From an uncultured Aquimarina sp. (GTDB taxonomy: Bacteria > Bacteroidota > Bacteroidia > Flavobacteriales > Flavobacteriaceae): a stretch of 64,000 nucleotides of DNA. The stretch spans positions 310,001 to 374,000 of the forward strand of contig CANMFM010000006.1 of NCBI GenBank assembly GCA_947497175.1, written 5' to 3'. Positions 14,398 through 56,171 of the stretch are shown here, piece by piece. The notes below the pieces were generated by a model, which was not told where the DNA came from, searched no databases, and saw nothing but the letters and a program-made list of their open reading frames with translations. Both the position numbers and the translations under genes were made by a program. Positions within the stretch are counted from its first letter, which is position 1. Each line of letters begins with the position of its first letter.

Positions 14398-15336
14398 TTA
14401 TGAGCTACTCTCACTTTTCTTTTTTAAAGACATAATTACAAAGTAAATACCTGCAATTATAAAGGGTATGCTTAACCATTGTCCTGTTGATAGGGCGTCT
14501 CCTAGAGAATCTTCAAAACCGCCTTGACTTTTCTTTACAAATTCTACAAAAAATCTAACGGTCCATAATAAAATCAGGAAGGATCCAAAAAGGAAGCCTA
14601 AATTATTTCGTTTATCTGTTTTCCAATAAATAAACCAAAGAATAATCGCAACAAATACATAACCAAAAGCTTCATATAGTTGTGCAGGGTGTCTATAAGG
14701 CACCGCATCCAAAAGAGATGAAAATTTTGGGTTTTCGGCAATAGCATTATATGCTTCATTCACTTTTTTGATTCCTGTCTTCTGTACAGCTTCTGACTTA
14801 CTATAATATTCACGAATAAACTTTACTCCAAATGGTGATTCTCCAGATTCGTTTCCGATAATTTCTGAATTAAAAAAGTTTCCTAAGCGAACAAATATGC
14901 CACCAAACGCTACGGGAACAACAATTCTATCTAATACCCAGAGGATATGTTTGTGAACTACATTTTTAGAATAGTAATACATGGCGATAATGATTCCGAT
15001 CGCTGCTCCGTGGCTTGCCAGTCCCTGAAAGCCAATAAACTCTAATTCGGGCTTAAACCTAAAGGGTAAAATAATTTCTAATAGATTATTTTTGTAATAA
15101 TCCCAATCGTAAAAGAAAACATGGCCCAAACGTGCACCTATTAAAGTTGCCACGACAGCATAAATAAAAATGCTGTCTAATTTTTCTATAGATATATTCT
15201 CACGAATGTATATCTTTTTCATTAAAAACCAACCTAAAGAAAAGGCGACCACAAACATTAAACTGTAAAAACGAATCATAAAAAAGCCAAGGTCTATTCC
15301 TTCAATTGGGTTCCAGATAATTTTTGAGAATATCAT
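14398..15336 (-). CDS. lgt: Prolipoprotein diacylglyceryl transferase
   Basis: Inner-membrane enzyme that transfers diacylglycerol from phosphatidylglycerol to the lipobox cysteine of preprolipoproteins. The 312 residues form about seven membrane segments. Conserved catalytic regions are intact: GLASHGAAIG with the essential His, RLGNFFNSEIIG with the essential Arg, the RHPAQLYEA signature, and VRFFVEF near the C-terminus. Many lipoproteins in this window are its likely substrates. It follows yidD on the same strand after about 110 bp. A divergent paralogue lacking the His lies at 53014-53772. Confidence 0.96.
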   Translation of the reverse strand: MIFSKIIWNPIEGIDLGFFMIRFYSLMFVVAFSLGWFLMKKIYIRENISIEKLDSIFIYAVVATLIGARLGHVFFYDWDYYKNNLLEIILPFRFKPELEFIGFQGLASHGAAIGIIIAMYYYSKNVVHKHILWVLDRIVVPVAFGGIFVRLGNFFNSEIIGNESGESPFGVKFIREYYSKSEAVQKTGIKKVNEAYNAIAENPKFSSLLDAVPYRHPAQLYEAFGYVFVAIILWFIYWKTDKRNNLGFLFGSFLILLWTVRFFVEFVKKSQGGFEDSLGDALSTGQWLSIPFIIAGIYFVIMSLKKKSESSS

Positions 15337-51373: not shown

Positions 51374-52972
51374 ATGACAGAGTTTGTAAGAAAGAGAGTG
51401 GCAAATGCCAAAAATGATATTCTATCCGGATTAACGGTAGCATTAGCTTTAGTGCCTGAAGCTGTAGCTTTTGCTTTCGTTGCAGGGGTAGACCCTTTGG
51501 TAGGATTGTACGCTGCTTTTATGATTGGATTGATCACTTCCATATTTGGTGGTCGCCCAGGGATGATTTCTGGTGCCACTGGAGCATTAGCAGTAGTTAT
51601 GGTTAGTCTTGTAGCCGAAGGTAATGCTATGGGAGAAGAAGGTGAGCAGTTAGGATTGTATTATCTTTTTGCAACTGTAATTCTTATGGGAGGTATCCAA
51701 ATGCTAGCAGGCGTACTTAAGCTTGGTAAATTTGTTCGTTTGATTCCCCATCCGGTGATGATGGGATTTGTAAACGGATTGGCAATCGTGATCTTTCTCT
51801 CTCAGTTAGGTATGTTCAAAGAATTTATAAATGGAGAAAAAGTATGGATGCAAGGCTCCGACTTATGGATGATGATTGGATTGGTATTTTTAACCATGGC
51901 AATTATGTGGGGGCTTCCTAAATTAAAGGCAACCGCAAAATTACCCGAGGCATTAATCGGTATTGTTGTCGTTTCTGCCATTGTGATTCTGGGAAAATTA
52001 GAGGTAGCCACTGTGGGTAGTTTTATAAGAGATGGAGGAGGAGAAGGACTAAAAGGCGGGTTACCTCAGTTTCAGTTTGATATATTTGATAAAGTACCAA
52101 TGACATGGGAGACTTTTAGATTTATTGGTCCTTATGCCTTAATACTTGCAGCAATCGGTTTGATAGAATCGCTCATGACATTAAATCTTATTGACGAGTT
52201 AACAGAAACCAGAGGAAATTCTAATAGAGAGTGTCTGGCTCAAGGTGGTGCAAATATTGTTACCGGACTTTTTGGAGGAATGGGAGGTTGCGCTATGATA
52301 GGGCAATCTATAATTAATATTAAAGGAGGAGGGCGTACTCGACTCTCAGGTATTGTGGCCGCAGTAACATTATTGTTGTTTATTTTGTTTGCGTCTGGGT
52401 TGATTGAGCAGGTTCCTATCGCCGCGTTGGTAGGCGTAATGTTTATGGTTGTGATCGGTACCTTTGCGTGGTCCAGCTTTAGAATTTTAAATAAAATACC
52501 GCTTACAGATGCTATTGTACTCATAGCAGTATCTCTATTAACAGTATTTTTTGACTTAGCTGTAGCAGTTATTGCCGGAGTAATTATGTCGGCACTGGCA
52601 TTTGCCTGGGAAAACGCTAAGAAAATTAGAGCAAGAAAACATGTAAAGGAGGATGGTACCAAAGTATACGAAATATGGGGGCCTCTTTTCTTTGGAAGTA
52701 TACAAGCATTTAACAGTAAATTTGATGTAGCAAATGACCCAGAGCGCATTGAAATCGATTTTATCGAATCTCGCGTTAGCGATCATTCAGCATTAGAAGC
52801 AATCTTTAATCTGGTAGGAAAATATGAAGAAGCAGGTAAAAAGGTTCGAATTAAGCACCTTAGCGAAGAATGTCAGGCATTAATGATAAAAGCTTCTCCA
52901 AGATTAGCTAATGTGATAGAGCACGATGTAGACGACCCAAGATACCATGTAATGGCAAAAGCAATGAAATAA
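51374..52972 (+). CDS. SulP-family anion transporter with STAS domain
   Basis: A 532-residue inner-membrane transporter of the SLC26/SulP family, carrying sulfate, bicarbonate or similar anions. Family blocks include GLTVALALVPEAVAFAFVAG, LYAAFMIGLITSIFGGRPGM, SGATGALAVVMVSL and NIKGGGRTRLSGIVAA; about 12 membrane segments precede a cytoplasmic STAS domain (about 430-525). It lies 41 bases before the Lgt-like gene on the same strand. Sulfate uptake for sulfonolipids would be an attractive link but is not shown. Confidence 0.92.
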   Translation: MTEFVRKRVANAKNDILSGLTVALALVPEAVAFAFVAGVDPLVGLYAAFMIGLITSIFGGRPGMISGATGALAVVMVSLVAEGNAMGEEGEQLGLYYLFATVILMGGIQMLAGVLKLGKFVRLIPHPVMMGFVNGLAIVIFLSQLGMFKEFINGEKVWMQGSDLWMMIGLVFLTMAIMWGLPKLKATAKLPEALIGIVVVSAIVILGKLEVATVGSFIRDGGGEGLKGGLPQFQFDIFDKVPMTWETFRFIGPYALILAAIGLIESLMTLNLIDELTETRGNSNRECLAQGGANIVTGLFGGMGGCAMIGQSIINIKGGGRTRLSGIVAAVTLLLFILFASGLIEQVPIAALVGVMFMVVIGTFAWSSFRILNKIPLTDAIVLIAVSLLTVFFDLAVAVIAGVIMSALAFAWENAKKIRARKHVKEDGTKVYEIWGPLFFGSIQAFNSKFDVANDPERIEIDFIESRVSDHSALEAIFNLVGKYEEAGKKVRIKHLSEECQALMIKASPRLANVIEHDVDDPRYHVMAKAMK

Positions 52973-53013: not shown

Positions 53014-53772
53014 ATGGATATTCCTTTTGAACCTATTGTTTTTGGTATTAAAGTGAATATCCATTTGATTTTAGAATATGCTGCTTTTTTTATAGGATTT
53101 CGTTATTATGTATATCTCAAAAAAAATATAAAGGACCCTATCACAGATCATAATCGATTGTCAATTATTATAGGTGCAGTATTTGGAGCATTTTTTGGAT
53201 CTAGAATTATGGGTTTTCTGGAACAGCCTATGTTTGCTATGGGCCCACAATACATTCTTTCGATACTAAGTGCCAAGACGATCATGGGCGGACTTTTTGG
53301 AGGTTTACTTGGGGTGGAGTTGGCTAAAAGAATTATTCGAGAAAAGCATTCTTCAGGAGATCTATTTACATTTCCGATCATTTTGGGAATCATTATTGGT
53401 AGGGTTGGTTGTTTTTTAGCAGGGACTACCGAGTTTACCTATGGTAATGAAACATCATCTTTTTTGGGCATGGATTTAGGAGATGGAATATTAAGATACC
53501 CAATAGCATTGTTCGAGGTCATTTTTTTAGTAGGTCTGTGGCTTTTTTTAAAACAGCTTCAAAAAAAACATACCTATAAAAGCGGAATCCTGTTTCGGTA
53601 TTTCATGATCCTTTATTTTCTATTTAGATTTATTATAGAATTCTTGAAACCTAATATATTTTTGATTTTAGGATTAAGTAGTATTCAGTATTTATGTATC
53701 TTATGCTTGATTTATTATTGGAAAACAATTCGAGATACATTTTATGCCAACAAGAAACTATACGTATTATGA
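53014..53772 (+). CDS. Lgt-like membrane protein lacking the catalytic histidine
   Basis: A 252-residue polytopic membrane protein related to prolipoprotein diacylglyceryl transferase. The Lgt topology and the GRVGCFLAGTTE block (Arg130, aligned with the essential Arg region of Lgt) are seen. But the place of the essential His (SFHGG in Lgt, SHGAA in this genome's lgt) reads TIMGGLFGG, and the RHPxQLYE signature is RYPIALFE. It therefore probably does not act as a standard Lgt. Its last 29 bases overlap the start of the radical SAM gene, so the two are translationally coupled. A role in binding or presenting a diacylglyceryl lipid is inferred. Confidence 0.85.
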   Translation: MDIPFEPIVFGIKVNIHLILEYAAFFIGFRYYVYLKKNIKDPITDHNRLSIIIGAVFGAFFGSRIMGFLEQPMFAMGPQYILSILSAKTIMGGLFGGLLGVELAKRIIREKHSSGDLFTFPIILGIIIGRVGCFLAGTTEFTYGNETSSFLGMDLGDGILRYPIALFEVIFLVGLWLFLKQLQKKHTYKSGILFRYFMILYFLFRFIIEFLKPNIFLILGLSSIQYLCILCLIYYWKTIRDTFYANKKLYVL

Positions 53773-55138
53773 TTATACATTAAGCTTATGCCCAACTTGT
53801 CTTAAAAGAATAGATGCCAAGATTGTTTTTGAAGAAGGTAAAGTTTTTATGTTAAAGCGCTGTCCAGAACACGGTCGATCAAAAGTTTTGATAGCAGATG
53901 ATATAGAATATTATAAGAATATCAGAAACTACAACAAGCCTTCAGAGTTCCCCTATAAATTTAATACTACTACAGATTATGGATGCCCGTATGATTGTGG
54001 ATTATGCCCCGATCATGAACAACACTCATGTTTAACTATTATTGAAGTCACAGACCGCTGTAATCTTACTTGCCCTACGTGTTATGCATCATCATCACCG
54101 CACTATGGTCGCCATCGAACTATGGAAGAGATTAAAAAAATGCTGGATACTATCGTAGAAAATGAGAAAGAACCAGACGTGGTACAAATAAGTGGTGGTG
54201 AACCTACTGTGCATCCTCAATTTTTTGAAATTTTGGATTATGCCAAGCAATTGCCTATTCGGCATCTTATGTTGAATACTAATGGGGTACGTATCGCTAA
54301 GGATATTAAATTTGTTGAACGCTTAGCAAGTTATATGCCAGATTTTGAAGTTTACTTGCAATTTGATTCTTTACAAAAAATAGCTTTAGAAAAATTAAGA
54401 GGTGAAGATCTAACACCTATTAGGAAACAAGCCATCGATAACTTAAATCAATTTAACCTATCGACAACATTAGTAGTTACTTTAGAGAAAGGATTAAATG
54501 ATGATCAAATAGGAGAGATTATTTCGTTTGCTACAAAACAAAAAAGTGTTAGGGGAGTTACATTTCAGCCTACACAAATTGCGGGAAGATTAGAAGATTT
54601 TGATACACAAACCAACCGAATTACACTTACCGAAGTTAGAAGAAAAATACTAGAGCAATCTCCAATATTTGAATCTGATGATTTAATACCTGTGCCCTGT
54701 AACCCCGATGCTTTAGTAATGGGGTATGCATTAAAAAATGAGGATGGTATTTTACCACTCACCCGATACGTAAACCCTGCAGATTTATTAGATAATGGAA
54801 AAAATACTATTGTTTATGAGCAAGATTATGCACTACATGGCAAAATGCTAGAGTTGTTTAGTACCGGGAACTCTGTTGAAACTGCATCAGAAAACCTGAA
54901 ATCTATTATGTGTTGTTTGCCCGATATTGATGCTCCCAACCTGGGATATGAAAATTTATTTAGGATTATCATTATGCAATTTATTGATGCTTACAATTTT
55001 GATGTACGTGCAATAAAAAAATCCTGTGTTCATATTGTGAATAAAGATTATAAAATTATTCCTTTTGAAACGATGAATTTATTCTATAGGGATGATAAAC
55101 GAGCATATTTAGAACAACTAAGAAAAGATGTGATATGA
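53744..55138 (+). CDS. Tes-like radical SAM protein
   Basis: A 464-residue radical SAM enzyme resembling archaeal tetraether lipid synthase (Tes, MJ0619/MA_1486 family), which couples lipid tails by C-C bonds. Seen in order: a rubredoxin-like start with Cys16-P-T-Cys19 and Cys40-PEHG; Cys81, Cys85 and Cys88 in GCPYDCGLCPDHEQHSC; the radical SAM cluster Cys106-x3-Cys110-x2-Cys113 in RCNLTCPTCYA; ISGGEPTVHP; LNTNG and VYLQFDSL; and a C-terminal SIMCCLPD and KKSCVHIVNKDYKIIPF segment. It starts inside the Lgt-like gene and ends with ATGA shared with a small membrane-protein gene. Family likeness is strong; the substrate in this bacterium is unknown. The Cys I expect after IIPF in Tes is absent (IIPFETMN). 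Confidence 0.85.
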   Translation: MPTRNYTYYDYTLSLCPTCLKRIDAKIVFEEGKVFMLKRCPEHGRSKVLIADDIEYYKNIRNYNKPSEFPYKFNTTTDYGCPYDCGLCPDHEQHSCLTIIEVTDRCNLTCPTCYASSSPHYGRHRTMEEIKKMLDTIVENEKEPDVVQISGGEPTVHPQFFEILDYAKQLPIRHLMLNTNGVRIAKDIKFVERLASYMPDFEVYLQFDSLQKIALEKLRGEDLTPIRKQAIDNLNQFNLSTTLVVTLEKGLNDDQIGEIISFATKQKSVRGVTFQPTQIAGRLEDFDTQTNRITLTEVRRKILEQSPIFESDDLIPVPCNPDALVMGYALKNEDGILPLTRYVNPADLLDNGKNTIVYEQDYALHGKMLELFSTGNSVETASENLKSIMCCLPDIDAPNLGYENLFRIIIMQFIDAYNFDVRAIKKSCVHIVNKDYKIIPFETMNLFYRDDKRAYLEQLRKDVI

Positions 55139-55353
55139 TTTTAAATTCAATGGTATTTGAACCCGGTAATTTAGATGGGATAATTTATTTGATTCTCTTA
55201 ATTCTTCTTGGTCCGCCAATTTTTCTTGCTATTATCGGATTGATCTTGTTTAGAACAGCAAGTCGTAAGGCAGGAAAAGTATTTTTTATACTTTCCGGGA
55301 TATATCTTGTAGTCGGATTGGGTATTTGCGGAGCTTTAATGACTGGATTTTAA
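55135..55353 (+). CDS. Small membrane protein coupled to the Tes-like gene
   Basis: A 72-residue protein with two membrane helices (about 15-40, IIYLILLILLGPPIFLAIIG, and about 50-70) joined by a short basic loop (FRTASRKAGK). The start overlaps the radical SAM stop in ATGA, and it is convergent with the methyltransferase gene by a 4-base overlap. It is small enough to be an accessory subunit of a membrane enzyme complex. I recognise no family. Confidence 0.7.
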   Translation: MILNSMVFEPGNLDGIIYLILLILLGPPIFLAIIGLILFRTASRKAGKVFFILSGIYLVVGLGICGALMTGF

Positions 55354-56171
55354 GTTTTTTCTAAAAGGTATAAAGTTTCATTTAAAACTTCATCTTTATC
55401 TGAAATACCACTTTTGGGAGCAAAGATTTTTGAAAGTTCAAACTCGTCTGTATATTCTTTGATAGTATATTCTTTTATATCAGAAAAATAAGAATGAGGT
55501 ATGGTTTGATGATTAAAAGAATCATTAGTAGCGTTATTACTGTCAAAGTAATGTAGTAAACGTTGGTACACCTTGGTGTTTTCAACTTCGGGTAGATAGG
55601 TGACACATCCTAACCGATCACCTGGTTTTTGTAATGCAGCAAATACATTACATAATTTATTTGTAGTATTTCGATCCAAAAAAAAGAAAACACCTTCAAT
55701 TAAGATAAATGTTGGTTCTTTCTCAATCATGGGGCCAAGCAGCTCCACAATTTTTTCTGTAGAACTATCGTTAAAATCAATAGCGATGTATTGAATATTG
55801 CGATTGGGTAATTTTCCTTCTATAGTCCAGCGATCTACTTTCTCTTTTTTATAATCTATAATATCTTTTTTATCAATTTCTATGGTAGAAACGTTATTCC
55901 TAAATGAGAATTGATACATACTAAACCCAGAACCAAAATTAATTAAGGTGCCTCCATTGTTTTCTTCAAAAAAGGAATTCATACGCTCATAGAAAAAGCG
56001 ATTTCTCAAACTATGTAAGATAGCTTCATACTTAGACACATTATTAAGGATATTTGGTATTAAGGCATCTGTAGCAGAATTGTTCCATATTTTGGCATAG
56101 ATGTCTTTACTAATATCTTCATGATATGACCTGTAGGTAGATACAGCAAAAGCAGTTTCGTGTATTTGCAT
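55350..56171 (-). CDS. SAM-dependent methyltransferase, leucine carboxyl methyltransferase-like
   Basis: A 273-residue class I methyltransferase of the LCM/PPM1 group, annotated elsewhere as O-methyltransferase for polyketide-like substrates. It has NNVSKYEAILHSLRNRFF near the N-terminus, the SAM-binding TLINFGSGFSMYQFSF with the acidic TIEIDKKDI after it, AIDFND, and ILIEGVFFFLD as motif IV. Target is a carboxylate or hydroxyl in other members. It is tail to tail with the Tes-like cassette, overlapping by 4 bases, so it is on its own transcript. Confidence 0.85.
   Translation of the reverse strand: MQIHETAFAVSTYRSYHEDISKDIYAKIWNNSATDALIPNILNNVSKYEAILHSLRNRFFYERMNSFFEENNGGTLINFGSGFSMYQFSFRNNVSTIEIDKKDIIDYKKEKVDRWTIEGKLPNRNIQYIAIDFNDSSTEKIVELLGPMIEKEPTFILIEGVFFFLDRNTTNKLCNVFAALQKPGDRLGCVTYLPEVENTKVYQRLLHYFDSNNATNDSFNHQTIPHSYFSDIKEYTIKEYTDEFELSKIFAPKSGISDKDEVLNETLYLLEKT

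Follow-up and report, generated by a model that had tools for sequence, protein, structure and literature searches.

A conserved three-gene set encoding an Lgt paralog, a Tes-like radical SAM protein and a small membrane protein with a C-terminal Gly-x-Cys end: a candidate system for lipid modification of a membrane protein

In a window of 64,000 nucleotides from an uncultured Aquimarina sp. (contig CANMFM010000006.1, positions 310,001 to 374,000), three genes on the forward strand encode an Lgt-like integral membrane protein, a Tes-like radical S-adenosylmethionine (SAM) protein and a small membrane protein. This set, hereafter the cassette, is conserved far beyond chance, and we tentatively propose that its product is a lipidated membrane protein, with the Lgt paralog transferring a diacylglyceryl group to a cysteine near the C-terminus of the small protein and the acyl chains likely being modified by the radical SAM enzyme. 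The locus was studied by open reading frame (ORF) calls and translations, which bore out the original prediction of three genes on one strand with overlaps of 29 bases (Lgt-like/radical SAM) and 4 bases (radical SAM/small protein). The host is an Aquimarina-like member of Flavobacteriaceae, and the nearest relatives of the radical SAM protein in named genomes are from Aquimarina, at no more than 92% identity. The features of the cassette are as follows.

53014-53772 (+): Lgt-like integral membrane protein, 252 aa, a divergent paralog of Lgt (ORF, PF01790)
53744-55138 (+): Tes-like radical SAM protein, 464 aa (ORF, PF23545/PF04055)
53789-53872 (+): rubredoxin-type iron site of the radical SAM protein (C16, C19, C40, H43), spaced as C9-X2-C12-X20-C33-X2-H36 of Tes
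53984-54016 (+): N-terminal [4Fe-4S] site of the radical SAM protein (C81, C85, C88, H91), aligned with C73, C77, C80 and a His of Tes
54059-54082 (+): radical SAM motif C106-X3-C110-X2-C113 (motif and domain match)
55135-55353 (+): small membrane protein, 72 aa, with two predicted helices and both termini predicted non-cytoplasmic (ORF, no family)
55321-55329 (+): Gly63-Ile64-Cys65, matching the conserved [G/S]-x-Cys pattern of the small proteins and followed by seven residues (motif conservation)

The key third gene, and the most telling feature of the locus, is the small membrane protein with its C-terminal Gly-x-Cys, a point missed in the original prediction. Profile scans against Pfam and NCBIfam assigned it to no family above cut-off. 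To characterise such proteins, 168 small ORFs with at least two predicted helices lying beside the radical SAM and Lgt genes were reduced to 63 representatives at 60% identity and compared with 55 representatives of similar ORFs taken from other parts of these loci; the ORFs of both sets were called mechanically, and some may not be genes. A Cys within the last 20 residues was found in 58 of the 63 cassette representatives versus 23 of the 55 controls, and [GSA]-x-Cys with a tail of 1-14 residues before the stop in 53/63 versus 1/55. Among longer ORFs (at least 180 aa) this motif occurred in 30 of 1040, and in 4 of the 167 with a C-terminal helix; three of these four are cassette small proteins with long N-terminal parts, the removal of which leaves a background of 1/164. 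The small proteins are diverse overall, yet their ends are alike: a last transmembrane helix, Gly-x-Cys and a few residues, typically I-[GS]-[LF]-G-[IVT]-C-G. Tandem copies were present in 31 of 128 loci, and a search for a paralog elsewhere in the genome returned a match at chance level only (E 0.03). Many small proteins of Flavobacteriaceae (e.g. L005, L011 and L024) start with a LEVGNLxGL-like stretch, which is predicted to be non-cytoplasmic in the two-helix forms.

Membrane proteins tend to follow the positive-inside rule, and the stretch preceding the last helix was net positive in 56 of 57 representatives, so that the Cys is predicted to lie at the periplasmic end of this helix. By prediction, then, the helix enters from the cytoplasm and carries the Cys at its outer end, as in lipoproteins, and the Cys would face the periplasm, the side where Lgt works. 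The residue before the Cys is mostly bulky (the window protein has LGIC at the lipobox place). As this bulky residue goes together with a nearly complete lack of lipobox matches, quantified below, the small proteins are not ordinary lipoproteins.

The assignment of the first gene product as an Lgt-like membrane protein stood up to a domain search and a residue alignment: PF01790 (LGT) matched at 72.2 bits against a cut-off of 24.9, and the protein has both the LGT domain and the predicted fold. It scored below the cut-offs of the two NCBIfam lgt models (42.4 vs 118.9 and 45.6 vs 334 bits). When compared with Lgt itself (PF01790, TIGR00544; PDB 5azb/5azc), the cassette paralogs share, besides domain and predicted fold, the residues G142 and G145 (E. 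coli numbering); R143 and R239, which bind the donor lipid phosphatidylglycerol in the E. coli enzyme, were kept in all 128 cassette rows (114 distinct), as were E202, Y235 and G154. They differ from Lgt in other positions: Asn146 is replaced by Cys in all 128 rows, no His was found within E. coli columns 95-110 of these rows, i.e. His103 is absent, and Tyr26 is mostly His. The window protein accordingly has His at 26, Cys at 146 and no His near 103. Tyr26, His103 and Asn146 are essential in E. coli Lgt, where His103 may position the acceptor, and vary among other Lgts too. The active site of the E. coli enzyme has been proposed to open on the periplasmic face. Cys133 of the paralog is near-invariant and predicted to be on the periplasmic side.

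Besides the cassette paralog, the same genome encodes two further Lgts with canonical motifs, one of them at 14398-15336 (-) of the window, as well as a fourth protein with the LGT domain, at most 374 aa long and carrying a GRLGCFSVGCCHG motif; the coordinates of the further LGT proteins, given jointly, are window 14398-15336 (-), G000 C1:84967-85725 and G000 C4:313476-313940. The second Lgt of M. smegmatis, MSMEG_5408, is reported to carry Y26H and N146C (PMC13251419), the same pair of changes as most cassette Lgts; a single paper with that name was found in the open-licence literature, and none found there links a radical SAM protein to Lgt in the present manner.

Pairing of the radical SAM and Lgt-like genes in relatives, on which the original prediction had been made to depend, proved to be conserved in a neighbourhood survey across Bacteroidota. 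Among 149 Flavobacteriaceae genomes, one per genus, both proteins (E ≤1e-60 for radical SAM, ≤1e-25 for Lgt-like) occurred in the same 20 genera, the other 129 having neither at these limits. In a phylum-wide set of 395 genomes, the radical SAM protein (>350 bits) was detected in 31; in 29 of these, three of them read on longer stretches, the same strand carries the Lgt gene no more than 5 kb away. The remaining two (G272 and G034) encode elsewhere an Lgt with 72% and 42% identity, respectively, to that of locus L120, and the G034 protein carries the GRIGC signature on direct reading. In the 80 closest loci of named genomes (L032-L111, the best 80 of 309 matches, close kin and nearly all from Flavobacteriia), the Lgt-like gene was on the same strand within 5 kb in every case (76 within 300 bp, 64 overlapping), and each had a small Cys-tailed membrane ORF. 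Within the genus, the radical SAM gene is an accessory trait, found in 7 of 11 genomes, the present one included (TrsS model, >300 bits).

More distant loci retain the association: L112-L114, with 39-40% identity in the radical SAM protein, keep the set in a different gene order. L116, of the same phylum as the window, has radical SAM and Lgt proteins of the same type. Three actinobacterial records (plasmids of Mycobacterium branderi and M. avium, and a Nonomuraea replicon) have the Lgt-like gene, Cys-tailed small ORF(s) and the radical SAM gene adjacent to one another. The cassette is thus not peculiar to Bacteroidetes, and its reach into Actinomycetota had been missed originally. The relatives of two Mycobacterium proteins (120 listed for each) have 26 longest-contig sizes in common, which suggests that both are often on one contig. 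Neither Lgt nor Cys-tailed small ORFs were found in four Tes-type and two TrsS-type loci examined.

The radical SAM protein contains PF23545 and PF04055. All the cysteines originally pointed out in it were located in the translation: 16, 19, 40 (in CPEHG, the third of the rubredoxin type), 81/85/88 and 106/110/113; beyond this metal-site set there are C96, C319, C390, C391 and C428. The claimed likeness to Tes was also sustained. By alignment and predicted fold, the protein resembles Tes (GDGT-MAS; M. jannaschii MJ0619, NF045702, PDB 7tol and 7tom) over the full length, and the ligands of the rubredoxin-type site (C-X2-C-X20-C-X2-H: C16, C19, C40, H43), of the N-terminal [4Fe-4S] site and of the radical SAM site (CX3CX2C: C106, C110, C113) are in place; His91 is, we infer, the fourth ligand of the N-terminal site. 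Fold and pockets of the structure model are Tes-like, and its predicted local distance difference test score is below 50 at residues 69-94, 107-119 and 349-400, too low for a reading of the geometry of the C-terminal cluster. In the alignment M411 matches up with the labile Met439 of Tes and C428 with C456 (Tes C-terminal Cys numbers were counted off the alignment), and Ile431 takes the place of Tyr459, which is conserved in 1,000 archaeal homologs; the Tes mutants Y459F and Y459L retain activity.

Membership of the Tes family itself had to be given up after a hidden Markov model search and an alignment check. The protein scored 301.6 bits with NF045702 against a cut-off of 450, it falls outside the Tes-type clade (four Tes-type rows lie across a 100/99 branch, in a tree without an archaeal Tes row), and Tyr459 and two C-terminal Cys of Tes are replaced. 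Membership in TrsS, a radical SAM (seleno)protein family (NF045646), was likewise rejected on score and tree position: TrsS is the best-scoring NCBIfam model, at 335.8 bits below its cut-off of 490, and among the radical SAM rows not linked to Lgt the closest one in the tree is L142, of TrsS type. TrsS goes with a DVU_1556-family methyltransferase, whereas the partner genes of the cassette are the Lgt-like and small membrane proteins; the window cassette adjoins no methyltransferase of that family, the nearby one being of the LCM family. DVU_1556-like proteins are encoded at the two TrsS-type loci, with scores (136 and 132 bits) that fall short of the cut-off of 155 for that model. The cassette protein also differs from TrsS in having Cys and no in-frame TGA; selenocysteine was considered and dismissed, the TGA flagged in the L031 row leaving the ORF uninterrupted.

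The actinobacterial cassette enzymes (L144, L153, L145) have lost the N-terminal [4Fe-4S] cysteines; their radical SAM and rubredoxin-type sites are retained, and additional Cys motifs (PCSHPHCC, CENC, QCC and PFC) are present. The TrsS-type gene L142:5306-6741 of a Mycolicibacterium vanbaalenii plasmid adjoins genes for CcdA, a protein disulphide oxidoreductase and a second radical SAM protein.

From these results, a tentative hypothesis regarding the mechanism may be put forward. The dedicated Lgt paralog, together with the conservation and the predicted placement of the small-protein Cys, suggests that this residue has a lipid attached to it, or at the least binds one. In this scheme, the paralog would move a diacylglyceryl group from phosphatidylglycerol to this Cys, presented by a helix with the predicted geometry of a lipoprotein signal peptide placed at the C-terminus, and its acceptor specificity may have changed, by loss of His103 and replacement of Asn146 by Cys, to suit the Gly-x-Cys end. 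Because the residue before the Cys is mostly bulky, a cut by signal peptidase II is not expected and the lipid would remain on the whole small protein. Tes acts on lipid tails using a cluster sulphur; the cassette enzyme most plausibly acts, either ahead of the transfer or following it, on the tails of the same lipid and from the cytoplasmic face, likely by abstracting hydrogen from the acyl chains, which would then be joined or otherwise modified. A bolder version seems unlikely to us: a cross-phylum system of C-terminal lipidation in which a dedicated Lgt paralog and a Tes-type enzyme that couples or thiolates acyl chains through carbon radicals would yield a protein-borne cross-linked or membrane-spanning lipid.

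Several observations weigh against the main proposal. The cassette Lgts differ from E. coli Lgt at three positions that are essential there (H103, Y26 and N146), so that transfer may be lost; Cys146 is shared by distant Lgts and by the fourth LGT protein encoded here, and is therefore not specific to the cassette. The lipobox [LVI][ASTVI][GAS]C is absent, and even the pattern with Gly also at position -2 fits only 1 of 137 distinct small proteins. Of the 63 representatives, five lack a Cys among their 20 C-terminal residues and ten do not match the motif, extra small ORFs without it occur at L133/L147 and L149, no small ORF was called beside the radical SAM and Lgt genes of L116, and in genome G034 no motif-bearing Cys-tailed small ORF was present in 16 kb around the radical SAM gene or 12 kb around the Lgt gene. 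In the radical SAM protein, some ligands of the C-terminal cluster of Tes are replaced (C455 by S427, C470 by E442) and C319, C390 and C391 are extra; the branch joining all Lgt-linked radical SAM proteins is weak (80/34).

To the main alternative we assign a rather low probability: the Lgt-like protein holds a lipid, transfers nothing and has the small protein as a permanent subunit, the Cys of which pairs with Cys133 in a disulphide or redox link, phospholipid tails being presented to the radical SAM enzyme. In its favour are the changes at H103, N146 and mostly Y26 in all or nearly all cassette Lgts, the missing lipobox, and the near-invariance and predicted periplasmic location that Cys133 shares with the Cys of the small protein. 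N146C, however, occurs also in Lgts outside such cassettes, the retention of R143, R239, E202, Y235 and G154 in 128/128 rows argues for retained catalysis, and tandem copies of the small protein (31/128 loci) suit a substrate more than a subunit. A second alternative, close to the original prediction, is a product in the form of a free modified membrane lipid, where the radical SAM enzyme joins or modifies the acyl chains of a phospholipid (or sulfonolipid) lying on the Lgt-like holder, with the small protein as an accessory. Such a reading, which we consider quite improbable, agrees with the Tes-like fold and pockets and with the known role of Tes, the products of which are free lipids and the bacterial homologs of which have been proposed to make branched glycerol dialkyl glycerol tetraethers (brGDGTs); it conflicts with the lack of Lgt and Cys-tailed small ORFs in all four Tes-type loci and with the position of the cassette enzyme outside the Tes-type clade, and leaves the near-invariant C-terminal Cys unexplained.

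We regard it as very improbable that the radical SAM protein is a maturase acting on the small protein in the manner of ribosomally synthesised and post-translationally modified peptides (RiPPs), with lipidation by the Lgt paralog afterwards, even if the small ORFs are precursor-like and sometimes tandem, and lipoprotein-type RiPPs exist in Bacteroidota (PMC12636315). Hardly any weight is given to a TrsS-type enzyme of an uncharacterised Trs system with an incidental Lgt neighbour: the best NCBIfam model and the nearest outside relative (L142) are of this type, but the score stays under the cut-off, co-occurrence with Lgt is too complete for an incidental neighbour, and the methyltransferase beside the window cassette belongs to another family (LCM) and is absent from L063-L111.

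Among the neighbouring genes, an LCM/TIGR00027-like methyltransferase gene (55350-56171, -) converges on the cassette, sharing 4 bases with the end of the small gene. It was rejected as a part of the cassette, being present in 23 of the 31 Aquimarina-type loci L032-L062 and in none of the 49 loci L063-L111, as was the sulphate permease (51374-52972), present in 30/31 and 0/49 of the same loci. A role in anti-phage defence was also set aside, as PADLOC returned nothing beyond weak hits of viperin type (49.8 bits) in the radical SAM core. In locus L114 an ICMT/PEMT-like membrane methyltransferase gene (L114:4784-5377) is added between the radical SAM and Lgt genes. Eukaryotic ICMT enzymes methylate C-terminal cysteines that bear lipid, a parallel which is suggestive. 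No clean ICMT ORF was found in L112 or L113; a DUF4395 protein is encoded between the radical SAM and Lgt genes of L113 (10271-10951), with a homolog at L112:9518-10516.

The original prediction knew of no earlier description of the radical SAM and Lgt pair in Bacteroidetes, and none was found in the open-licence literature on bacterial Tes, TrsS, Lgt with radical SAM, lipobox together with C-terminal Cys, and RiPPs with Lgt (subscription papers were mostly outside the search), nor was the whole set described there. GDGT-MAS homologs were reported in bacteria not known for biphytanyl chains (Lloyd et al., PMC9433317), brGDGT roles were proposed for bacterial Tes homologs (Zeng et al., PMC8941075) and were called unconfirmed in a 2025 study (PMC11868695), and a 2026 review of selenoproteins (PMC13188914) includes TrsS. 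One of the closest parallels is that of the DAG-RiPPs (PMC12636315), RiPP-lipoprotein hybrids from Bacteroidota among others, which likewise combine a diacylglyceryl lipid with modification by a metalloenzyme. Those, however, use an N-terminal signal peptide, the general lipoprotein pathway and an MNIO enzyme, in contrast to the C-terminal Cys, dedicated Lgt paralog and Tes-like radical SAM protein of the cassette, the lipidation of which is predicted. The parts of the cassette are of known families, while their combination and the Gly-x-Cys small proteins appear to be undescribed.

If the proposed lipidation of the small protein is true, it would represent a new kind of membrane-protein modification, and bacteria would possess a pathway dedicated to C-terminal lipidation of a membrane protein. 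LGT-domain proteins annotated as prolipoprotein diacylglyceryl transferase in Flavobacteriaceae, Mycobacterium and others would then have another, testable job. Bacterial relatives of Tes, hitherto proposed as makers of free tetraethers, would gain a concrete substrate and partner, and the role of some of these enzymes becomes testable through one small protein of measurable mass.
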